A stretch of DNA of 64,000 nucleotides from Sphingopyxis indica. Its GTDB lineage: Bacteria; Pseudomonadota; Alphaproteobacteria; Sphingomonadales; Sphingomonadaceae. Below are positions 37,883 to 48,003 of this stretch, piece after piece. The stretch lies in contig NZ_FZPA01000013.1 in assembly GCF_900188185.1 (NCBI RefSeq), forward strand, positions 1-64,000, in the 5' to 3' direction. The position numbers were made by a program, and so were the translations under genes. Every line of letters starts with the position of its first letter. Within the stretch, counting starts at the first letter, position 1. The notes under the pieces are model-generated. The model ran no database searches. It was not told the DNA's origin and worked only from the letters and a program-made list of their open reading frames with translations.

Positions 37883-38191
37883 TTTTTAGCCTTGCAGCGG
37901 TAAACCGGTAACGAGGTTGGAGCATCTCATTCGTTTCGTCCAGCTCGACCGGTGTCCGTCATCTTTGCCGGGACGGCCGGCGCAAGGGTGCTCACGCGGT
38001 AACGGACGGTGTTTTCGAAGAAACGGATCGACGACTTTACAGGGCAAAGCAGAGCGAACCGAACCGGGTGAACGCGACCGCGCATTAACGACATTTGGCC
38101 GATTTCTGTCGGTCGGCTTTGGGACGAAAAATTGGAAAGAAGACACCTGCAAAGCTTTGCTCCGCGTCTAAAGAACTTGCCAAATTCCAGT
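37883..38191. other. Noncoding stretch before the low-G+C module
   Basis: These 309 bases contain no credible gene. Base composition changes here from the very G+C-rich metal cargo to the milder composition of the next eight kilobases. No att-like repeat or tRNA was recognised. It is the probable left edge of the inserted module. Confidence 0.4.
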
Positions 38192-39214
38192 CTACTGAGC
38201 GCTATAACGCTCGGAAAGCTTAGTCAGATGCGCGTTAGGTCCAAGAATGTCAGACGGTTCGCGACAAAAAAGCTCATGCTGATAAGAGGGCGCATTCGCC
38301 CGCATGGCCTCGTCTAGAACAGTCGTAACCACTTCCACACCGAGCGACTGCAAAGCGCCCCTGGCACCAGCGAAGCGACAATTCAACGCAGCAAGGACCT
38401 GGCCTCGCCGCAACCCGTACAATGCTAGATCCGGAGTTGGAATTTCGCCTGTCCAATCATCCAGGATTGCTGCAATCAGAGCGCTCGATACGGCGTCCCC
38501 GGCACCGGCGGAGTCGACCACCCCTTCAATCAGCACTGCAGGAAGGTGGTGGAACTCTGAATCTTCCGCTCCGCCAAGCCGGACATCCAATCCTCGACGG
38601 CCATCCGTCAAAATCTGAATTGGGCTCGAATAGCGAAGCCGACCCCCGAACTCGTGCGCTCGTTGGGCAGAGATTTTCAGGATATCGACGAACGGCTCTA
38701 CGTCAGTCATCGAGATGTCGCCCGAAATATCCGACGGCTCGAAGAAAGTGATCGCGCCGTTTTCCTTCAACTGTCTGGCAAGGTCGATAATCCCCGGAGA
38801 CAGACGGTCGAAGTAAAAAACCTTTGGAGCGAGCAGCTTGGCTGCGTGAATGTCTAAGGGATCAGGCGGGCTGTAACGCGGCAGCCGTGCTCCTGTTTCA
38901 GGGTCATTCAACAAGAAACGGTGATCTCGCGGCCCTTCAAGTATCTCGTGGATTACGACCGGCGTCTCCGTCCGGCTGTCACGCCTGAGGAGATGGGGCC
39001 GAACTCCGGCGCGAACGAGGTCATCGATTACCGCAGCGGCTTCAGCATCCGCTCCGAGCTTGGCGACCAAAGCCACGTCGTTCCCAAAGCTTGCGAGGGT
39101 CGCTGCAACGTTACCGCATGAACCCCCAGCGGCGAGCGATGCGCCCTTTCTGCCGGGGCGCCAGATCACGTCGAGCGCAACGAACCCTGTTGCAAGAATG
39201 TCTGGATCGGTCAC
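38192..39214 (-). CDS. PfkB-family carbohydrate/nucleoside kinase
   Basis: Ribokinase-like enzyme that should phosphorylate a sugar or nucleoside. The N-terminal ATGFVALDVIWRP and AAGGSCGNVAATLASFG contain the substrate-binding Gly-Gly motif, and DSAGAGDAVSSALIAAILD (about residues 250-270) is PfkB signature 2 with the catalytic Asp. GTG at 39214 has AAAGGAG upstream and is favoured over a TTG at 39250. The substrate cannot be predicted. It is the last of three leftward genes (NADAR, SIS-HAD, this) that face the HTH-PRTase-ATPase operon. It may act on the same compound as the SIS-HAD protein; that is inference. Confidence 0.85.
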   Translation of the reverse strand: MTDPDILATGFVALDVIWRPGRKGASLAAGGSCGNVAATLASFGNDVALVAKLGADAEAAAVIDDLVRAGVRPHLLRRDSRTETPVVIHEILEGPRDHRFLLNDPETGARLPRYSPPDPLDIHAAKLLAPKVFYFDRLSPGIIDLARQLKENGAITFFEPSDISGDISMTDVEPFVDILKISAQRAHEFGGRLRYSSPIQILTDGRRGLDVRLGGAEDSEFHHLPAVLIEGVVDSAGAGDAVSSALIAAILDDWTGEIPTPDLALYGLRRGQVLAALNCRFAGARGALQSLGVEVVTTVLDEAMRANAPSYQHELFCREPSDILGPNAHLTKLSERYSAQ

Positions 39215-39287
39215 GACCGCGGAGTCTCCTTTGCGGTAGGTGCCAAACAACTAGCAAGAGAACAAAGAGGGAACAAGTGAATATCTC

Positions 39288-41171
39288 TCACAATGTCATA
39301 AGGTCGATCGCAAAGCTACCGTCCTCTGAGTTAATCCGGTCCAAATACGCGACCAGCCCGTCGGGGCCCTTGACCCCCGGTGGAAGGAGATTCCAGCACC
39401 CATTTGGATCGTCACTTACCCGGTCGACGCTGAGGCCGATGTCCTCCTTGAGCAAAGCGAAATCATTTCCTGGATAGCCGCCGGAATCGCCGATCCTGAG
39501 AAATTTAGCATCGGCTGTATTGACCGCATCGGCCAATCTCCGCGCAACATTTTCCTTATCGACCCCAGGAGCAAGGACGTCGATGGAATGGCCCGACACG
39601 TAGGTCCGGAGACGCAAACCATTCTCTTCAAGTATCTTCAGGACAAAATCGCGGACCGGCCCAAGCGGCCGACCGTCGACTGCGGTCAAGCAAAGCTGTA
39701 CGCGTTGGCGTCGAACCGATATCCCACATGATGGCGCGCACTGCTCGATCACCTCGGCAAGTCGGGAAAGACCTACATCCTCGTCGATGCTGGATTTGTC
39801 GACGGCCTCGTCGAGCCGAATGCATAGGCCGCCATTGTAATAGCCGACCAGAATCTCTGGCCAGTGTCGCTCCGGCAAAACCTTTCGCAGCATGGCTCCC
39901 ACCGAGTCCCCTCGACCTGTTGCAAAGGCAAGCCGCCCTCCCTCGTCCAGAAAGCGGATCAGCCCTGCAAGAACGGCATCGCGAGGCGGTTGTCGGCGCT
40001 CGCTCGACCGGACAACGGTTCCGTCATAGTCGAGAACGAGGCCATGGAACCGCATGGAAGACCCTCGCTCGCGAAAGGCCTGTTCGGCGTCAGCCCACTC
40101 CTCCGCCAACCCCGAAATTCCAACTAGCCTGCGACGAGCTGCAGCCTTCCGCAACGACGGCGACATGCCACGGACCCCTTGGCTTTGCAGGAGTAGCGAT
40201 GGGACGTGATAGATTCTGCGTCCGAAATCTGGGACACCCGGGCGCCCAGGGTCGACGCCCAAAATTTCGCCGGCCTGACCCGTCAACTCCATTGCAGACA
40301 TCAGTCCGTCGATGGGAAGAAACTCGCGCGGCGCGCCAAAGTCGAGTTCTGCCTTTGCTACCTCAGCCGGTAGCTCACCTGCTATATCAGCCCAGAGAAC
40401 CCTCGTCTGGTCTGTTAGCAGCGCAATCAGACCCAGTTCACCACCTCGTTTTGCTGCCCAAAGATGACGACCATGAGCAAAGTTTCGAAAGTCGACTGCC
40501 TCGACATTGATCAACGCCGCTTCCCAAAAATTCGTCTCGATCAGCCTTGCAGCGTCAACGAGAAGCGGATCGAAAGCGATTATCACTGTCGATCGGGACA
40601 ACACGTCCGTTGCCGCGCTTCGGCCAAGCCGCAAGACGGGGTCAACCCAACGTGGCGGCACAGGTGATCCAGCGATCTGCCCAGCAGCTCTGCAGATTAA
40701 AGTAGCAGACAACAACAAGGTGTGCGTTGCCAGAAAGCCGTCCTTTTGGCTGTCGGTCTCATACAGCAGAACCGTCGAGCCATAATCACGCGCGGCCTCC
40801 ACGAGCATGGACGCCTCCCGGTTGCAGAGTACCGTGATGCTGGATGCCTCTGATTTCACTGCGGCATCTAAAGCCGCCAAGATATCGGGATTCGTCCCTT
40901 CGGCACTTATAAGCCAGACATGCTTTCCGTTGCCAAGCGTTGGCGCAGCAATAAATTCCAGCGGCGTCAAAGACCGAGCGACGTTACCGTGGAGGCCCTC
41001 GATGGTCCGAGCCAGCAATCCCGCGGTGACCAATGAGCCACCGGACCCAATAGTCAATACGGACAGATCGCCCGAGGCCTGCAGCGCCTCTGAAATTGCT
41101 TTAACATCGGCAGAAAGTGCAAGCTTGATGGTCAGTGGGAGAGAATCAACGCGGTCGCGGAAATGGTTCAT
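39288..41171 (-). CDS. SIS-domain protein fused to a HAD phosphatase
   Basis: A two-part enzyme of 627 residues. The first 350 residues resemble a double SIS (sugar isomerase) unit: LSVLTIGSGGSLVTAGLLAR, VWLISAEGTNPDILAALDAA and, in the second unit, NVEAVDFRNFAHGRHLW. Residues 373-627 are a HAD phosphatase with FHGLVLDYDGTVV (nucleophile DYDGT), LAFATGRG (motif II) and FLRIGDSGGYPGNDFALLK (motif IV). SIS domains bind phosphosugars, and HAD Cof-type domains hydrolyse sugar phosphates or nucleotides, so the protein likely processes a phosphorylated sugar. I know of no named protein with this architecture. It lies between the PfkB and NADAR genes. Confidence 0.8.
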   Translation of the reverse strand: MNHFRDRVDSLPLTIKLALSADVKAISEALQASGDLSVLTIGSGGSLVTAGLLARTIEGLHGNVARSLTPLEFIAAPTLGNGKHVWLISAEGTNPDILAALDAAVKSEASSITVLCNREASMLVEAARDYGSTVLLYETDSQKDGFLATHTLLLSATLICRAAGQIAGSPVPPRWVDPVLRLGRSAATDVLSRSTVIIAFDPLLVDAARLIETNFWEAALINVEAVDFRNFAHGRHLWAAKRGGELGLIALLTDQTRVLWADIAGELPAEVAKAELDFGAPREFLPIDGLMSAMELTGQAGEILGVDPGRPGVPDFGRRIYHVPSLLLQSQGVRGMSPSLRKAAARRRLVGISGLAEEWADAEQAFRERGSSMRFHGLVLDYDGTVVRSSERRQPPRDAVLAGLIRFLDEGGRLAFATGRGDSVGAMLRKVLPERHWPEILVGYYNGGLCIRLDEAVDKSSIDEDVGLSRLAEVIEQCAPSCGISVRRQRVQLCLTAVDGRPLGPVRDFVLKILEENGLRLRTYVSGHSIDVLAPGVDKENVARRLADAVNTADAKFLRIGDSGGYPGNDFALLKEDIGLSVDRVSDDPNGCWNLLPPGVKGPDGLVAYLDRINSEDGSFAIDLMTL

Positions 41172-41210
41172 CAGCTCGCTCTTGCCGAAACAGGAGCAGA
41201 AGAAAAGCCC

Positions 41211-41738
41211 TCACCCCTGAGCAAATAGCTTCATGTCTGCAGGGTCGGACAGCTCGGGTGCTGATCGGACCTCAAGCTCGCCACTTCGCAAAGCGTCACG
41301 AACCTCCATCAGCATGATCCCTAGCATATTTTGCCCGCGGCCGTTCACCTCGCCCCAAGTGCGGTTTACGGCGTTGTCGACAGTGGCGGATTCCACCAGC
41401 CGGCTCTCACCCGTCGACAGCAGGAGGTCAGCGAGGTCTGCGTGCTGCGAGAATTTCGCGGCAACGATGTGGCGCATACGATCGAACTTCGTTGCCGCCC
41501 AGTCAGGCACGATATCCCACGTGTAAAGCCCATGAGCCGCCATCGCCACGAGAGCCGGCGAAGGCGCAGCCAAGAGCCACGCGCGGACTTCGGGCTTTCT
41601 AGCCTTTCCGGCTTGGTACGCATGCTCCGACGTCGGGAAGATGGTGTCTTCGAAGAATACAGGCCGCCGGAACAAATTACTGAAGGCCCCATAAGGCTTC
41701 TCATTAGCTCGATAAAATCGGATTTCGCTTGCGCCCAT
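41211..41738 (-). CDS. NADAR-family protein (ADP-ribose-related N-glycosidase fold)
   Basis: A 175-residue NADAR/DUF1768 protein. The conserved motifs are IRFYRANEKPYGAFSNLF near the start, FPTSEHAYQAGKA, then WAATKFDRMRHIVAAKFSQH, STGESRLVESA, NRTWGEVNGRGQNMLGIMLM. NADAR proteins cleave N-glycosidic bonds of ADP-ribose-like compounds, and some remove ADP-ribose from guanine in DNA as partners of DarT-like toxins. No DarT-like gene is visible here. The ATG at 41738 begins directly at the family domain; the frame is open to 41870 but would overlap the divergent HTH gene. It heads the leftward operon. Confidence 0.88.
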   Translation of the reverse strand: MGASEIRFYRANEKPYGAFSNLFRRPVFFEDTIFPTSEHAYQAGKARKPEVRAWLLAAPSPALVAMAAHGLYTWDIVPDWAATKFDRMRHIVAAKFSQHADLADLLLSTGESRLVESATVDNAVNRTWGEVNGRGQNMLGIMLMEVRDALRSGELEVRSAPELSDPADMKLFAQG

Positions 41739-41788
41739 TTTGTCTCTTGCCAATTTTGTAATAACTTCATTAAAAACATTATGCAGAA
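41739..41788. promoter_or_regulatory. AT-rich divergent promoter of the module
   Basis: Only 50 bases separate the NADAR and HTH start codons, and they are strikingly A+T rich. A TTGCCA box (41747-41752) with a TTAAAA box (41770-41775) could serve the rightward gene, which has no clear ribosome-binding site. The HTH protein is the natural candidate to bind here and control both operons. Confidence 0.45.
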
Positions 41789-42169
41789 ATGAAGGCCGGG
41801 TCAACTTCGAAATCGCCTCGCGGGCGTCCAGCGTCACCGACGGAGGGCGCGACGGAGGCGGTTGCTTCAATCAGGTCGCTTATAGCCGCGAATGGATGGA
41901 GTGAGGCTCGACTTGCACGCAAAGCCGGCGCATCTCAATCGGCTGTCCACAGGACCCTTCACGACCCGTCGCCGAAATGGACGCCGACCCTCCGGCAATT
42001 AATGCATTATGTAGAAAACCCCGAGCTGACCCCGAAGAAACCGATCGAGGCACAGCTGCCGGCGCCACTTTTGAAGGCTGCAAGGGCACTCTGGGATGGC
42101 ACTTCGACCGATGCGGAACGAATTACCAAACTGTTGACGCTTGTCCGCGACCTCAGGACGTCTAAATAG
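41789..42169 (+). CDS. HTH (XRE-like) regulator of the module
   Basis: A 126-residue DNA-binding protein. The helix-turn-helix is SLIAANGWSEARLARKAGAS followed by QSAVHRTLHDPSPKWTPTLR (about residues 30-69). A basic N-terminal arm (KAGSTSKSPRGRPASP) precedes it, and a helical C-terminus follows. It starts 50 bases from the divergent NADAR gene and 76 bases before the PRTase gene, so it likely regulates both arms. It may act as a repressor; that is inferred from position. Confidence 0.78.
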   Translation: MKAGSTSKSPRGRPASPTEGATEAVASIRSLIAANGWSEARLARKAGASQSAVHRTLHDPSPKWTPTLRQLMHYVENPELTPKKPIEAQLPAPLLKAARALWDGTSTDAERITKLLTLVRDLRTSK

Positions 42170-42245
42170 GATCCGGGGGGAATAGGCTGCCATCCGGCTG
42201 CTTGCTCCGAAATATTCTATCCAGGCGAGAATTGACTGAAGACGC

Positions 42246-43334
42246 ATGAGGAAGTTGCTCGCCGAAAGCCTCCTGAAACGGGTGATGGATTGGGACCAAG
42301 CGCGCCTCGCAGAGGAATTGCCGCTTCTCGATCGCATGGCAGGTTTCAAGTATGACGAGTACCAGCAGTTCGGGCCTGGCAGGAAATTCGTCGAGACGCT
42401 AGGCCTGTGGCTGGAGCAATTCCAGCCTGACGAACGAGAGGCCGCATTCGACTTTGTCAAAAATCGGCTAGTTTACATATCCGAAGGAGAGATGCGGCAT
42501 CTCGTAGAAGCCGCGTTCGCCGACCATATCAAGCCGATGCTGATCCGCGCGGCTGCGGAAACGCTCGGCTTGCCAGCACACAGCTTAGGTGCCGTTACCG
42601 AAAGTACAGCATTTCGCCGCTCCCTCAGATCCAGCCTGTTCTTCGGCCTGAGCGACGGTGCCCGTATGGACGTCTTTCGCCGGTCTGCAAATCTCGACAA
42701 TGAGCAGGTTTGGCAGGCCTATGAGCCAAGCGAGGCGAAAACGACCGGCCTTATCGAGGATTTGCGCAAGATCTACCCCGAGTCCTATTTCGAGCGTGTA
42801 TTCCTAATCGACGACTTCACCGCGAGCGGGATCAGCTATATCCGGCAGGAGCCCGATGGAAGCTGGAAAGGCAAGATCAAGAAGGCACTGACACAGTTTG
42901 GGGGAGACGCGGCCAAACTATTTTCGCCGGACGGATATCAGATGACGGTAGTGATTTACGTCGCCACCCCGGAAGCGTCGCATCACATTCGAACCCAACT
43001 CGCGGCCTATTGCGAAAGCATTGGCAAACCAGTCCCTGAAGTCATCATCGTCTACGAATTGCCGCAATCGACGAAGCTCGAAGACGCGAACGAGGGCGAT
43101 CGACCGTTCCTGGCTCTGGCGGATCAGGATCGATACTATCGAAACACCCCGATGGACACACATGAACAGAAGGGCAGGACGGATACAGTGAAGCGGGGAT
43201 TCGCAGGATGCGGCCTGCCCTTGGTACTGGGCCACAACACCCCGAATAATAGCCTTTATCTCCTGTGGGGAGATCAGGCGGTCGGTGCGCGCGGCCTGTT
43301 CCCGCGGATTGTCCGTCACAAGGGCAACAACTGA
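42246..43334 (+). CDS. Phosphoribosyltransferase-like protein (PRTase-CE type)
   Basis: A 362-residue protein with a PRPP-binding-like loop, VFLIDDFTASGISYI at about residues 188-202, in which the acidic pair and following Ser-Gly match the phosphoribosyltransferase signature. An all-helical N-terminal region of about 150 residues precedes it, and VVIYVATPEASHHIRTQLAA and EVIIVYELPQSTKL form further strands. This resembles PRTase-like domains described from comparative genomics of conflict systems (PRTase-CE); the assignment is from memory of the motif. It might use PRPP or bind nucleotides. Stop and start overlap the ATPase gene (TGATG at 43332-43336), so both are translated together. Confidence 0.7.
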   Translation: MRKLLAESLLKRVMDWDQARLAEELPLLDRMAGFKYDEYQQFGPGRKFVETLGLWLEQFQPDEREAAFDFVKNRLVYISEGEMRHLVEAAFADHIKPMLIRAAAETLGLPAHSLGAVTESTAFRRSLRSSLFFGLSDGARMDVFRRSANLDNEQVWQAYEPSEAKTTGLIEDLRKIYPESYFERVFLIDDFTASGISYIRQEPDGSWKGKIKKALTQFGGDAAKLFSPDGYQMTVVIYVATPEASHHIRTQLAAYCESIGKPVPEVIIVYELPQSTKLEDANEGDRPFLALADQDRYYRNTPMDTHEQKGRTDTVKRGFAGCGLPLVLGHNTPNNSLYLLWGDQAVGARGLFPRIVRHKGNN

Positions 43335-45223
43335 TGGTTCGCAACGCTTTCGCCGTCCGCACGTCGGAACTGTCGTCGCCCGACGAACTGTTTGCGCGGG
43401 ATTTCGCTCCCGAGGTCCTCGAGATACTCCCGCGCGACATCTTCGCGACCAGCGCGATGGTCCTCAGGTCTTCGCCCGGCGGCGGCAAAACCTCACTTCT
43501 CCGTATCTTCACTCCGGGGCCGATGCTGCAGGTTTTCCGTAACCACACGCGCGAACCCTACGTGGAGATATTCCGGCAGCTTCAAGCCGTGAATGCCGTG
43601 GATGGGGACAACATCCGCGCGATGGGCATTCTCATCCCCTGCACCAACGGGTACTCGGAGCTGCAGGCTCCCGAACAGGATCCAGCCGCGCGCGGGATGT
43701 TTCGCGCCCTCGTGAACGCCCGGATCATTCTTCGCGCTCTGCGCGCGATCTGCATGCTGCACGGCGTCGAGTATCCGCGCGATCTCGGTCGTCTGCGGAT
43801 CGATTATGAACGTGGACTACTCGACGAAGGCCCGGTTCCAAGATCCGCCGACGCGGAGAGCTTACGCAATTGGGCGGAGAGCGTCGAGAGTCGGCTGCTA
43901 GGATACCTTGACCAACTTGGGGCCGAGCGAGAGGAAACGCCTGTTCACCTTGTCTTCGATGCAGTCACCTGGCTTTCGCAAGCCCGGTTCCTCGTCGATG
44001 ATGTGCTGAGCGAAGTCAGGCCGATTGTCATGTTCGACGACGTGCAACGACTACGGCCGGGCCAACGTGCGACGTTGTACAAGGAGTTGCTGGATCATCG
44101 TGCTGCAGCGCCTGTATGGCTCGCGGAACGCACCGCCGTGCTTGAATCGTCGGAAATTTTCAGTGACGCGATTCAGCGGCGGGATTTCGAAGTCGTTGAG
44201 ATCGAGAGGGGCTGGCAGAAGCTGTCTGACAAGCGATTTCTCACGTTCGTTACAGGCATCGCAGATCGCCGGATGCGACAGATGCGGGACGACCCCGAGA
44301 GTTTTGGCGACCACCTCGGGTCATCACTCGATCCCCTGCAATTTCGATCCCAGCTCGCGACTGCCGTGGACACCTTGCGCGCGCGAGCAGTAGCCCGCGC
44401 AACTGACACGGATCGCTACTCTTCCTGGATTCAAGCTGCAGAGGGCTTCCCCAAGGCGGACCTTCTGGCATTGGCCATCGAGTGGTCGAAGACGAACATT
44501 CTGATCGAGCGCGACAGAAACAGGATACAAGCTGTCCTCGACCTGGAGCCCTTGCCGATCGAAGAACGGGAAAACCGCGAATCCAGCAAGCTGCCCTCGG
44601 CGGCGCTAAAGTTCGTAAGCTCCGAGTTCAAATTGCCGTATTTCTTCGGCATCGACAGAGTCGTCCGATTAAGCTCCTATAATGTAGAAGAATTTCTGCA
44701 GATATGCGCGGTTCTTTACGAGCATCTGCATGCAGCGCGAGTGTCACGCACCGATGGGCCCGTCTCCGTCAGTCCGGGCGAGCAGGATCGAGCATTACGC
44801 CGGCTGGCCGAGAAGCGATTCAGGGAAATTTCCCGAGCGTTTCCGTTGGGAGCGAAAGCGCAGAGGCTGATCGCCGCAATCGGCAAACTTTCTCACGAGC
44901 AGACATTCGCGCCCAATGCCCCTTATGCGCCCGGCGTCACCGGTATCGGATTGGCGATCGTCGACCGGGACGCACTCGTCAAGGCATCAGAGAACGACAA
45001 GCATCCGTTCTGCGAAACGGCGAAGATACTGAGCGCCTGTATCGCGTATAACTTGTTCGAGGTTCGAGAACTCAAACAGGACAATAAGCTCTGGACAGTT
45101 CTCTATTTGAACAGAATGCTCTGCGTTCATTTCGACCTGGTCTACCACACAGGAGGGTGGAGACCGACGTCGATCGCGCGACTCAAGGCATGGCATCAGG
45201 GAACGCCTTCAACAATCTTGTGA
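43334..45223 (+). CDS. ORC/CDC6-like P-loop ATPase
   Basis: A 629-residue AAA+-like ATPase. Walker A is LRSSPGGGKTSLLRIF near residues 44-60, and Walker B is PIVMFDDVQRLRPGQRATLY near 228-247. The long middle and C-terminal part are helical, with a winged-helix-like end region (FREISRAFPLGAKAQRLIAA). This agrees with the ORC/CDC6-like ATPases of conflict loci rather than with any housekeeping family. The ATG at 43334 overlaps the PRTase stop. It may sense or switch the partner proteins; that is inference. Confidence 0.72.
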   Translation: MVRNAFAVRTSELSSPDELFARDFAPEVLEILPRDIFATSAMVLRSSPGGGKTSLLRIFTPGPMLQVFRNHTREPYVEIFRQLQAVNAVDGDNIRAMGILIPCTNGYSELQAPEQDPAARGMFRALVNARIILRALRAICMLHGVEYPRDLGRLRIDYERGLLDEGPVPRSADAESLRNWAESVESRLLGYLDQLGAEREETPVHLVFDAVTWLSQARFLVDDVLSEVRPIVMFDDVQRLRPGQRATLYKELLDHRAAAPVWLAERTAVLESSEIFSDAIQRRDFEVVEIERGWQKLSDKRFLTFVTGIADRRMRQMRDDPESFGDHLGSSLDPLQFRSQLATAVDTLRARAVARATDTDRYSSWIQAAEGFPKADLLALAIEWSKTNILIERDRNRIQAVLDLEPLPIEERENRESSKLPSAALKFVSSEFKLPYFFGIDRVVRLSSYNVEEFLQICAVLYEHLHAARVSRTDGPVSVSPGEQDRALRRLAEKRFREISRAFPLGAKAQRLIAAIGKLSHEQTFAPNAPYAPGVTGIGLAIVDRDALVKASENDKHPFCETAKILSACIAYNLFEVRELKQDNKLWTVLYLNRMLCVHFDLVYHTGGWRPTSIARLKAWHQGTPSTIL

Positions 45224-45239
45224 AGGCAGGAGGAAATCG

Positions 45240-46478
45240 ATGTGGTGGGGCGAATATAATCTGTTTCGGCAGACCGCTTTCGACGAGTTCTGGCATGGGC
45301 ATCTTCAGGAAGACCGGAAGATTTTGTTCATTGTCGGTCGAGGCTTCGACCCCAGGGCGCTTGTGTCCCTCAACCGGATTATAGCGCAGCGTCCTGACAT
45401 CGATCGGCACTGCATCGCAATCGAAATGTCCAACTGCTTCGACACCGATGGCGAAGCGGTCCGCATGCGCGACACGAATGAAGCGGGGCTACGGCAACTG
45501 TTTGCCGAAGACCGGATCGAAATCCGAGATCTGACGCCAACCGATACCGACGGAATTAGAGATATTTCCCGGGCTACCGCCCACCTCTTTGCCGACGTCG
45601 CGCGCAACGATGCCGGTTTCTCCGATATCGTTCTCGATATCAGCACCCTGCCGCGGCTCGTCTATCTTACGCTGCTGAACCAGTTGCTCGGCGCCTTCGT
45701 TCGACCGAACGACCAGGCGCCGTTGGCATCGTCGGTAAATCTGCATGTCGTTTACGGCGAGAGCGCGGTTATAGATCGCGGCATTTCCAAGCGCGAAGTC
45801 GATGTCGATCTCGCTCCGCTTGCGAGCCTCGGCATCCGCCTAGAGGAAGAGGCATCACACGACTGGCCCAAGATATGGTTCCCAATACTCGCGGAAGACG
45901 TCAGCGAACAACTCGAACGCATACATTCCCGGATCGCGCCGGACGATGTCTGCCCGGTACTCCCGCTGCAGTCTGTCGATCCGAGGCGGGGCGATAATAT
46001 CATACGCGAGATGGGAGAGCTGGTTTTCGACCGAATGGCCGTTACACCGCGCGACATAATCTTCGCGACCGAGTGGAATCCCTTCCAGCTCTACAGGAGC
46101 CTTCTCGAAGCGATGGGTCGCTACGAAGAGAGCCTCAAATTCTTCGGCGGCGCGCGGTTCATCATATCACCGCTTTCTAGCAAAAGCCTATCCATAGGTT
46201 GCCTATTGGCGCTAGTCGAAAAGCGGGCGAAGGGTGATCGCGCCTCGATGCGGGTCGGAATGGCGCATATCGAGACGCGTCGTTATGAAGCCAACGACCT
46301 CGGAGAAGACTTGCCGATGGTCCCGATTTCCCTTTGGCTAACGGGCGACTGCTACAGAATCCGAACGGCAATCGAAGCGGTTAATCCGGCTGCACCCGAG
46401 GAGGTCGAACTACGCGAACCGGAGTCAGAACGAGAGCGCGCGGAAGAAGCGGCTGCTGCCTCTTCACCGCGCAAATGA
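45240..46478 (+). CDS. Unknown 412-residue protein, third gene of the rightward arm
   Basis: No family was recognised. The start MWWGEYNLFRQTAFDEFWHG leads into DRKILFIVGRGFDPRALVSL, a strand-loop-helix like a Rossmann nucleotide-binding unit, and then SDIVLDISTLPRLVYLTLLN. A second alpha/beta half follows (TPRDIIFATEWNPFQLYRSL, ARFIISPLSSKSLSIGCLLA, RASMRVGMAHIETRRYE). The C-terminus is a Glu/Ala-rich tail. There is no signal peptide or membrane helix. A strong AGGAGG sits 6 bases before the ATG, 16 bases after the ATPase gene. It is probably the effector or partner of the pair; the role is open. Confidence 0.7.
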   Translation: MWWGEYNLFRQTAFDEFWHGHLQEDRKILFIVGRGFDPRALVSLNRIIAQRPDIDRHCIAIEMSNCFDTDGEAVRMRDTNEAGLRQLFAEDRIEIRDLTPTDTDGIRDISRATAHLFADVARNDAGFSDIVLDISTLPRLVYLTLLNQLLGAFVRPNDQAPLASSVNLHVVYGESAVIDRGISKREVDVDLAPLASLGIRLEEEASHDWPKIWFPILAEDVSEQLERIHSRIAPDDVCPVLPLQSVDPRRGDNIIREMGELVFDRMAVTPRDIIFATEWNPFQLYRSLLEAMGRYEESLKFFGGARFIISPLSSKSLSIGCLLALVEKRAKGDRASMRVGMAHIETRRYEANDLGEDLPMVPISLWLTGDCYRIRTAIEAVNPAAPEEVELREPESERERAEEAAAASSPRK

Positions 46479-46554
46479 CATCTTTCGGGCGCGAACCAAT
46501 CGCGGTCCGAAGGGTTAGGATAAGGCGCAAACCAGCCGCATTCGCATATAGCAC

Positions 46555-48003
46555 TTAAAAGCCGGGTTTACGCCATCTGGTACAATTTGGACCACCCGCC
46601 CCTTCACAAATCTCCCAGCCGCCGCCGAGAGCGCGGTGGATTTCAACCACAGACAGGAGATGGTCTGTTCGCGCCGTGGCCAACGTCGCTTCGGCTTGGT
46701 ACAGGCTGCGTTCGGCATCGAGAATGTCTAGATATTGTCCCTCGCCCTCGCGAAATCGCACCGAAGCCATCCGCGCTGCCTCGCGGCTGGCGCCGACCTG
46801 CTGGTCGCGTATCGCAAGACCGGTCCGGATTGCGCCGTAGGCCGTCAGCGCGTCCTCGACATCGCGAAGGGCGATCAGAACGGTCCGGTGGTAATCGATC
46901 AGCGCCGCATCTGTGCGAGCATCGGCGACGCGGACCTGTGCGCGTAAACGCGACATGTTGAACACCCCCCAATCGAGGCTAGGGCCGCCCGCAAAGCCGA
47001 GCGCACCGCCAGTGAACAACGATTCAAACCCGCCGGCGAGGAGCCCAATGAAGCCGGACAGCCGCACCGTCGGAAACAAGTCGGCTTCGGCGACACCGCG
47101 CCGCGCGGTGGCGGCGGCGAGTGCGCGTTCGGCGGCGGCGATATCGGGCCGCCGCCGCAACAGGTCGGCGGGAGCGCCGACATCGATCTGTGCGATGTGC
47201 GGCAGACTGGTTGTTGCCGTGGCGGGACCGGCGAAGCTCTGCGGCGTCTGGCCGAGCAGCACGGCAAGGGCGTGACGCGCGGTGCCGATGCGCTGCTCGA
47301 TCCCGGGCAGCGTCGCTTCGACCGCGGACAGCGCGGCCTCTGCGCGAACGACGTCAAAGTGCGCGCCCGCGCCAGCGCGTTCCAGCTTGCGCGTGATGTC
47401 GAGCGAACGCCGCTGGGTTTCGATCTGGCGGTGCGCGATCGCAAACGCGGCCTCGCTTCCGCGCAGTTCGAAATAGTGGCTGGCGACATCGGCGGTGACC
47501 GCGGCGCGAACCGAGCGCAGCGCCGCCTCGGCGCCGCCGACCTCGGCTTCGGCGGCCTCGACTCCGCGGCGGACGCGGCCGAACAGGTCGATTTCCCACG
47601 ACGCTTCCGCGCCGGCGCGCAGGGCATCGCCCTCGCGCGGCTGACCGCCCGCACGCTCGACGTCGGCTTCCCGGCGGCGCTGATAGCCGGCAGCGACCCC
47701 GCCGCCGGGAAGCCGTGCCGCGCGCGACACGCCGGCGAGCGCGCGTGCTTCGTCGAGCCGCGCGACAGCTAGCCGCGCGTCGAGATTGGCTGCAAGCGCC
47801 TCTGCGATCAGCGCGTCCAGCGCCGGGTCACCGAACTGGCGCCACCACGCGGCCTCGGCGGATGCCCCGCCGATGCCCGCCGGCTGCGCGGCATAAGCGC
47901 CGGGCGCCTCGATCCGCGGTGGAACATAGTCGGGACCGACAGCGGCGCACCCCGCGAGGCCCACGAGAAGGATGGCGGGTGAAAGCTTGGCGATCAATAT
48001 CAT
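46555..48003 (-). CDS. NodT-type outer membrane factor of RND pump
   Basis: Outer-membrane channel lipoprotein. Lipoprotein signal SPAILLVGLAGCAAVGPDYV, then WWRQFGDPALDALIAEALAA, ALRAGAEASWEIDLFGRVRR and LLRRRPDIAAAERALAAATA are the NodT/OprM signatures. There are 482 residues. The ATG at 48003 overlaps the stop of the permease gene by 4 bases, making MFP-permease-OMF a single leftward operon with the operator described at 52.4 kb. Confidence 0.92.
   Translation of the reverse strand: MILIAKLSPAILLVGLAGCAAVGPDYVPPRIEAPGAYAAQPAGIGGASAEAAWWRQFGDPALDALIAEALAANLDARLAVARLDEARALAGVSRAARLPGGGVAAGYQRRREADVERAGGQPREGDALRAGAEASWEIDLFGRVRRGVEAAEAEVGGAEAALRSVRAAVTADVASHYFELRGSEAAFAIAHRQIETQRRSLDITRKLERAGAGAHFDVVRAEAALSAVEATLPGIEQRIGTARHALAVLLGQTPQSFAGPATATTSLPHIAQIDVGAPADLLRRRPDIAAAERALAAATARRGVAEADLFPTVRLSGFIGLLAGGFESLFTGGALGFAGGPSLDWGVFNMSRLRAQVRVADARTDAALIDYHRTVLIALRDVEDALTAYGAIRTGLAIRDQQVGASREAARMASVRFREGEGQYLDILDAERSLYQAEATLATARTDHLLSVVEIHRALGGGWEICEGAGGPNCTRWRKPGF

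Follow-up and report, generated by a model that had tools for sequence, protein, structure and literature searches.

The locus raises the question of what a NADAR protein acts on when no DarT-like gene lies near it. We analysed the window, that is, the whole 64,000-nucleotide stretch of Sphingopyxis indica contig NZ_FZPA01000013.1, in which an earlier note had read a NADAR gene next to sugar-kinase-like and phosphatase-like genes. It had reported no DarT-like gene nearby, and had supposed that a toxin might be hidden among the unidentified proteins, with a DarT-like fold to be looked for in a protein of 412 residues.

The NADAR protein and its active site

The gene reading was borne out, as the encoded protein matched Pfam PF08719 (1.7e-25, 90.6 bits, cut-off 35.1), and a search of the same genome with this family returned this one gene. 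The protein scored above the cut-off of NCBIfam TIGR02464, the riboflavin-intermediate N-glycosidase (79.0 bits, cut-off 73.7), and below that of NF053876, the DS32_2 NADAR anti-phage protein (65.5 bits, cut-off 240). The closest solved structures were E. coli YbiA (2b3w, 2.9e-19) and then 8bau, a NADAR domain protein, and alignment to both placed residues E38, K45 and E116. By this alignment the three residues are the probable equivalents of E43, K50 and E125, which are reported as the catalytic residues of the P. nicotianae NADAR (PMC11543638); that 8bau is this protein, numbered with an offset of two residues, is our own inference. The alignment of active-site residues that the earlier note had asked for revealed E38, K45, E116 and W128 to be identical in 42 of 42 cassette rows, two of which (L100 and L103) come from the same viral-collection contig. 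The catalytic acid in all 42 rows is the YbiA-type Glu (E116), not the Asp of the DarT1 type. The cassette NADAR clade also carries the signature N125-R126-x-WGEV, and the corresponding segment of YbiA is shorter.

The absence of a DarT-like gene held genome-wide: DarT (PF14487) gave no match across the own genome, which is 99.99% complete, while the identical search was positive in one of 14 control genomes. Among the seven cassette proteins described below, Pfam revealed no DarT, and scans against Pfam, PADLOC and NCBIfam with E up to 0.1 revealed no ADP-ribosyltransferase (ART).

A seven-gene cassette with the appearance of an acquired island

The NADAR gene is a member of a seven-gene, low-GC cassette of 8.3 kb, in the order PfkB kinase, SIS-HAD, NADAR, HTH, PRTase-CE, ORC/CDC6-like ATPase and CARF protein (Table 1). 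The left-hand neighbours had been read correctly in the earlier note, the phosphatase-like protein being of the HAD type and carrying a SIS-like N-terminal half as well, but the divergent HTH, PRTase-CE, ORC-CDC6-like and CARF genes had not been recognised as parts of the same cassette. The HTH gene is divergent from NADAR here, as in a number of related loci.

Table 1. Features of the cassette in the window.
Feature	Position	Strand	Basis
PfkB-family kinase, 352 aa	38192..39250	minus	Pfam; structure-profile relatives are fructokinases
SIS-HAD fusion protein, 627 aa	39288..41171	minus	Pfam, NCBIfam, profile-structure matches
NADAR protein, YbiA-type, 175 aa	41211..41738	minus	Pfam, NCBIfam, alignment; E38, K45, E116, W128 kept
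Presumed control region, 50 bp separating the divergent start codons of NADAR and HTH	41739..41788	none	
Small HTH protein, Cro/C1-like	41789..42169	plus	Pfam match below cut-off
PRTase-CE, 362 aa, IDDFTASG motif	42246..43334	plus	Pfam, PADLOC, model
ORC-CDC6-like AAA+ ATPase, 629 aa	43334..45223	plus	Pfam; Walker A and B motifs kept
Predicted tandem CARF-type sensor without a recognised effector domain, 412 aa	45240..46478	plus	PADLOC, model
Low-GC stretch containing the cassette	38000..46500	none	GC profile

From about 64-66% up to 37.5 kb, the GC content falls to 56-60% between 37 and 46.5 kb and then rises to 63-70%, and three relatives of the genus start to align at 46520-46579, 42-101 bp past the stop of the last gene. 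The low GC and this right-hand edge together give the cassette the appearance of an acquired island; ARAGORN found no tRNA gene within the 64-kb window. Of 80 genomes of the genus, three had SIS-HAD, namely the own genome, Sphingopyxis sp. H050 and one with a weak match (6e-4). The H050 cassette (G028, locus L020) is an identical copy, and we rejected it as a sign of recent horizontal transfer, since H050 is a close strain in which 39.8 kb of the window are 99.5-100% identical. When the flanks of 44 cassette loci were compared with 20 arbitrary regions of relatives, using 120 proteins each (from 162 flank and 224 control proteins), 120 PADLOC models were matched in the flanks and 37 in the controls. 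This comparison counts models rather than proteins, one protein may match many of them, and the controls come from fewer lineages, so that the enrichment lends weak, qualitative support to a defence-island setting.

Partner proteins

The PRTase-CE protein matched Pfam PF24390 (3.2e-16, 60.4 bits, cut-off 27) and the PADLOC PRTase_III-A models (best 2e-10), a name which refers to retrons; its reading as a label for CRISPR type III-A was discarded. In the PRPP-loop-like motif, D190 and G195 are present in 93 of 93 rows and D189 in 91. The top structural match of the predicted model (pLDDT 93.3) is an orotate PRTase with a Z of 9.8, and all but five of the 50 listed matches are titled PRTase, PyrR or UMP synthase, the exceptions being 1v9s, 7rh8, 5vog, 1wd5 and 1ufr, whose titles are uninformative on function. 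With Z values that are moderate and a match list that is uniform, the model agrees with a PRTase fold. PRTase-CE is the likely partner enzyme and a candidate for the toxin-like one, a putative ribosyl writer or effector, and in this sense the toxin suspected among the unidentified proteins has a candidate, although in a protein other than the one of 412 residues.

The 412-residue protein matched the PADLOC CARF6 model with 1.1e-100. We built an AlphaFold2 model from 55 sequences (pLDDT 89.9, pTM 0.88), for which VIA-align placed Can1 (6sce) first, with a Z of 14.8 over 234 residues and an rmsd of 3.1, and gave further matches to Csm6, Cam1, Cdn1, Card1, Can2 and Csa3 chains. Foldseek alone ranked KaiC and universal stress proteins at the top with low TM-scores. 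Based on the CARF6 match and the structural match of the model to Can1, we assign the protein as a predicted tandem CARF-type sensor, and the idea that it hides a DarT was rejected on the same two grounds. No ART was among the 50 listed Foldseek or VIA-align matches of the model, an absence which by itself proves nothing.

The N-terminal half of SIS-HAD resembles phosphosugar isomerases and deaminases, with profile matches to glucosamine-6-phosphate deaminase-type SIS chains (1.5e-5), and the profile of the C-terminal half matches Cof/sucrose-phosphatase (SPP)-type HADs; D381, D383, K539 and D562 of the HAD half are invariant in 99 of 99 rows. Fructokinases are nearest to the PfkB profile (4.4e-20), and G249, G251 and D252 are invariant in all 78 rows of this kinase. 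Across the seven cassette proteins, Pfam recognised no nuclease or polymerase domain and no reverse transcriptase, and Pfam, PADLOC and NCBIfam recognised no cyclase.

Distribution of the cassette and co-inheritance of its genes

A scan of 84,980 species genomes for SIS-HAD gave 301 relatives, of which the best 80, many of them metagenome-assembled, were kept. These best 80 of 301 loci come from Pseudomonadota, Acidobacteriota, Chloroflexota, Cyanobacteriota, Planctomycetota, Nitrospirota, Bacteroidota, Thermodesulfobacteriota, Chlamydiota and others. Among 72,556 plasmid records, SIS-HAD was found in 18, PRTase in 19 and both in 17; two of the 18 SIS-HAD records (H4 and H7) were left out, L019 carries SIS-HAD alone, and L116 and L117 carry PRTase without the remaining cassette. 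Of 397 genomes of the family, five had a strong PRTase match including the own genome, and the other four comprise three with the full cassette and NADAR and one in which the locus runs into a contig edge.

The core across related cassettes consists of SIS-HAD, PRTase, ORC and CARF, and NADAR and PfkB vary by clade. In the 53 untruncated core genome loci, PfkB only occurs in 31, both genes in 12, NADAR only in 10 and neither in none, the other 27 of the 80 loci being truncated or having a core gene missing from view; the 13 untruncated plasmid loci are divided into 6, 6, 1 and 0 in the same order. The SIS-HAD tree needs only 4 changes to explain the three types, the NADAR-only type being a single, fully supported clade, which means few switches and not repeated independent evidence. 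The alternation of NADAR and PfkB offers one independent pair on this tree and is nearly one event; despite the zero loci with neither gene, we dropped the idea of independent replacements and take no statistical support from it. Loci of the NADAR-only type have NADAR on the SIS-HAD strand and upstream of that gene, the two being -4 to +26 bp apart as measured from script-chosen start codons, and in loci with both NADAR and PfkB the NADAR gene is usually tail-to-tail with PfkB, often with a divergent HTH-like ORF. Most cassettes place NADAR one to five genes from PRTase, not adjoining it.

By distance correlations the cassette falls into PRTase-ORC-CARF (r 0.96-0.97), SIS-HAD-PfkB (0.96) and, as a third unit, NADAR, whose attachment is loose and for which Mantel r was 0.35 with SIS-HAD, 0.38 with PRTase and 0.73 with PfkB. 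NADAR is also the most conserved of the proteins compared, with median identities of 64% versus 29% for SIS-HAD in 39 shared loci and, again in shared loci, 63% versus 38% for PRTase and 68% versus 40% for PfkB. This conservation may reflect a fixed chemical substrate that constrains the enzyme, rather than contact with a co-evolving partner. Since NADAR is missing from 31 of the 53 genome and 6 of the 13 plasmid loci, and was not seen near the nine retron-type PRTase-CE loci described below, it is no obligatory antitoxin.

Several plasmid loci show peculiarities of their own. On a Sinorhizobium meliloti plasmid (L013, 4743-17016), two PRTase-ORC-CARF sets flank one SIS-HAD/PfkB/NADAR/HTH unit, and the PRTase of the second set is apparently split into two ORFs. 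In Rhizobium sp. CC-CFT758 (L018, 4855-11856), PRTase, CARF and SIS-HAD are fragmented into several ORFs, possibly by decay or sequencing errors. Bradyrhizobium plasmid p187_1 (L007, 2489-8669) carries multiubiquitin and ThiF-family genes and a long hypothetical gene upstream of the cassette, and in L017 (12937-14391) a caspase-domain protein (Peptidase_C14, 3.5e-34) lies beside the NADAR end.

PRTase-CE and NADAR in other operons

Of 398 sampled genomes of the phylum, 36 had a PRTase-CE match with E up to 0.001 and 18 one that passed the cut-off, and all 18 loci were inspected. A reverse transcriptase adjoins PRTase-CE in nine of them, as in type III retrons, and the PADLOC RT_III-A model matched one tested locus of this kind with 9.2e-171; L231 matched PF24409 (wHTH-PRTase). 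None of these nine retron-type loci had a CARF match, and none had a NADAR nearby, three of the stretches (L229, L232 and L239) ending at contig ends. The SIS-HAD cassette accounts for five loci, with NADAR in the window, G650, G490 and G832 and without it in G647. The two Hma-like operons belong to one genus, PRTase-ORC-CARF with a DNA methyltransferase was found in one locus (L228), and the last (L227) was placed in no operon type.

In the Hma-like operons (L225, 4671-16691, and L226; genomes G614 and G537), an insertion of PRTase-CE with NADAR directly after it separates the HmaA helicase from the HmaB methylase, and L225 matched HmaA, HmaB and HmaC with 1.3e-155, 8.4e-116 and 1.3e-73, respectively. 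Their NADAR lies outside the cassette clade and, by our reading of the sequence, has Arg at the position of the usual catalytic Lys; no CARF, SIS-HAD or PfkB profile match was found near these two PRTase-CE/NADAR pairs. Altogether, 6 of the 18 loci have NADAR in one gene cluster with PRTase-CE, the two genes adjoining each other only in the two Hma-like operons, and the background frequency of NADAR is 32 of 299 genomes in an overlapping sample. Judged from its rate alone, this linkage would be far above random placement, with the six loci representing two arrangements only.

The methyltransferase arrangement was also observed in two further loci, of Sphingomonadaceae (L159, 6157-11531, and L160, 6519-11907), as a four-gene operon in which a DNA methyltransferase is joined to PRTase-CE, the ORC-CDC6-like ATPase and CARF6, with no match for SIS-HAD, PfkB or NADAR in the 19.5 kb covered. 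Effectors of type III retrons are described as PRTases with a winged helix (PMC12548924), and a DprA-PRTase pair is reported to give protection against T7 and lambda in a 2022 paper that calls the mode of action of PRTase effectors unknown (PMC9122126).

Solo NADAR genes on contigs of the viral collection and in prophage-like surroundings

Viral contigs scanned with the window NADAR gave 39 loci, of which eight are 63-76% identical to it and the other 31 no more than 39%. Of the eight, L167 and L168 carry cassette genes, and six (L166 and L169-L173) have none in the stretch seen; with an aldolase-like ORF that we read near its NADAR, L166 may be partly chromosomal and is a doubtful phage copy, and the exact clade signature is missing in L172 and L173. 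On the viral-collection contig L173 (4389-10778), the solo NADAR is next to an integrase gene, and an RtcB RNA ligase gene lies about 3 kb away from it. Another viral-collection contig, L102, which is cut at its start, carries PRTase, ORC, CARF, PfkB and NADAR with no SIS-HAD in view.

Solo NADARs of the clade also occur in prophage-like surroundings in one genus (L148, L149 and L151; Pfam matches to an integrase in L149 and a C5 methylase in L148), the L169 NADAR is the same as the L148 copy, and genome G490 carries a full cassette (L150) besides a solo copy. Two plasmid NADARs of about 50% identity (L114 and L115) belong to the clade but have no cassette, and together with the three prophage copies they led us to reject the view that the clade is confined to the cassette. 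On plasmids, the eight NADARs at least 60% identical to that of the window are all in cassettes, eight in number, and the other 35 records reach 51% at most. Solo and cassette copies are intermingled in the NADAR tree, where well-supported branches require at least four changes. A search of 50,697 phage records gave 298 NADAR matches, all below 60% identity, and no PRTase match. We favour the view that the solo genes suggest viral borrowing of the eraser as a counter-defence, and there may be other reasons for their carriage.

A proposed role for NADAR and its alternatives

What the loci display directly is the cassette membership of NADAR, the conserved catalytic motifs, the fold classes and the clustering of PRTase-CE and NADAR in two unrelated operon kinds. 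We tentatively suggest, with a confidence somewhat short of even, that NADAR serves a mobile defence-type cassette as its eraser and reverses an N-ribosyl product of PRTase-CE. When the cell is infected or stressed, PRTase-CE would be turned on by the CARF sensor and the ORC/CDC6-like ATPase, and would use PRPP to put 5-phosphoribose through an N-glycosidic bond on an acceptor, presumably a nucleobase in DNA, in RNA or in a free nucleotide. The product would be harmful, or would itself be a messenger for the CARF sensor, and NADAR as an N-ribosyl hydrolase would remove the phosphoribosyl tag, thereby protecting the host or ending the response, while SIS-HAD and PfkB would handle the sugar phosphate. 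In this scheme all substrates including the acceptor, every enzymatic step, the toxicity, the direction of signalling and the defence phenotype are presumed.

We base the eraser proposal on the intact active sites, the defence-effector type of PRTase-CE, the clustering with NADAR in 6 of 18 loci, the CARF sensor, the conservation of NADAR above its neighbours and the solo viral and prophage copies. The spread of the cassette in distant bacteria, with NADAR in 22 of 53 genome and 7 of 13 plasmid loci, was also counted in its favour. Counted against it were the optional nature of NADAR, its position away from PRTase in most cassettes, its loose co-evolution, the near-single-event alternation with PfkB, the Arg in place of the catalytic Lys in the Hma-linked NADAR and the TIGR02464 score above cut-off; the literature searched, which was covered in part, gave no report of phosphoribosyl removal from a base by a NADAR protein.

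The earlier note had also considered a small metabolite as the substrate of NADAR, which may hold and is contained in the alternatives that follow. The main rival, which we regard as doubtful, is that the cassette makes or tunes a nucleotide-like messenger and tags no macromolecule: PRTase, SIS-HAD and PfkB would build or rework a phosphoribosyl compound sensed by the tandem CARF protein, with the ORC ATPase as effector and NADAR or PfkB lowering the messenger. It would account for a CARF-type sensor without a recognised cyclase among the seven proteins and for three sugar/nucleotide enzymes with intact motifs, and PRTases of Ter systems have been proposed to make such a nucleotide (PMC5512222). 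However, PRTase-ORC-CARF of the methyltransferase type, which has no match for the three genes SIS-HAD, PfkB and NADAR, and the retron-type loci, which have no CARF match, fit an effector role of PRTase better. Family membership with YbiA, the TIGR02464 score and the optional presence of NADAR would also suit a metabolic house-cleaner, a riboflavin-intermediate N-glycosidase or general ribosylamine scavenger that would shield the host from side-products of the sugar chemistry of the cassette, with no toxin or signal role. An annotated riboflavin-type gene, GTP cyclohydrolase II, does lie about 3.4 kb from the L017 cassette beyond an IS element, but none is annotated within the cassettes of 16 plasmid regions, and this reading, which we consider distinctly unlikely, fits poorly with NADAR directly after PRTase-CE in the Hma-like operon and with the solo NADARs on viral-collection contigs.

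The true partner could be an unrecognised ART encoded at another place in the genome or by an invading phage, with NADAR then countering guanine ADP-ribosylation as in known systems. Several NADAR subfamilies are reported to remove guanine-ADPr in vitro, and YarT is an example of a non-DarT ART partner (PMC11543638, PMC11125620); the genome-wide search, in which DarT was the sole ART family sought, and the cassette scans for ARTs were nevertheless both negative, and we hold this to be very unlikely. That NADAR is passive cargo travelling with the island is barely plausible: the loose co-inheritance (Mantel r 0.35) and its absence from over half of the untruncated genome loci would agree with it, but its position relative to PfkB/HTH or SIS-HAD is recurrent, the catalytic residues are intact in all rows, and NADAR occurs with PRTase-CE again in a second operon kind.

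Relation to known systems

Pfam and PADLOC already have names for the domain families, and both PRTase effectors and NADAR antitoxins have been described before as kinds of protein. The cassette resembles DarTG1 (DarT1-NADAR) and YarT-YbiA in that a NADAR-family N-ribosyl hydrolase with the E/K/acid set kept is tied to a candidate ribosyl-transferring enzyme. It differs in having no recognised ART and a PRPP-type PRTase as the candidate writer, in its several further genes (ATPase, CARF, SIS-HAD and kinase), in its optional NADAR and, from DarTG1, in the Glu in place of Asp. With retron type III-A it shares the PRTase-CE domain (PF24390), whereas it has the ORC ATPase and CARF instead of a reverse transcriptase, and NADAR occurs in 4 of 5 SIS-HAD-type but 0 of 9 retron-type loci. 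The methyltransferase operons (L159, L160 and L228) share the PRTase-ORC-CARF trio and have the DNA methyltransferase in place of SIS-HAD, PfkB and NADAR. The Hma operons share the order PRTase-CE then NADAR, in a different carrier system and with a NADAR of another clade having Arg for Lys. The CARF fold is predicted to be common with Can1, Csm6 and Card1 of type III CRISPR, in tandem as in Can1, while no nuclease or polymerase domain was recognised in the seven proteins. E. coli YbiA shares the family, the catalytic residues and the NCBIfam model whose cut-off is passed, and the window clade differs by its longer signature segment and its defence-type context.

Earlier papers on prokaryotic immune systems and on CARF classification may cover part of this neighbourhood. 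In a literature covered mostly at title level, so that an earlier description is possible, we found no paper describing the cassette or the PRTase/NADAR pair.

In its widest form the proposal is a second ribosylation chemistry of defence, in which PRTase-CE would phosphoribosylate nucleobases from PRPP, the NADAR clade would erase the mark, phages would repeatedly have adopted NADAR as a counter-defence, and DNA methylation would replace the eraser in the sister cassette; taken as a whole we judge this unlikely. The window NADAR may nevertheless undo a previously unrecognised kind of ribose tag. Since the type of chemistry of NADAR, the breakage of an N-ribosyl bond, is known, the linked NADAR offers a handle on the PRTase chemistry, as the substrate that it removes would reveal the product of PRTase. 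If the proposal is true, reversible ribosylation of nucleic acids or nucleotides would reach beyond the NAD-using ARTs, and a reason would be offered for the presence of NADAR genes in some phages.
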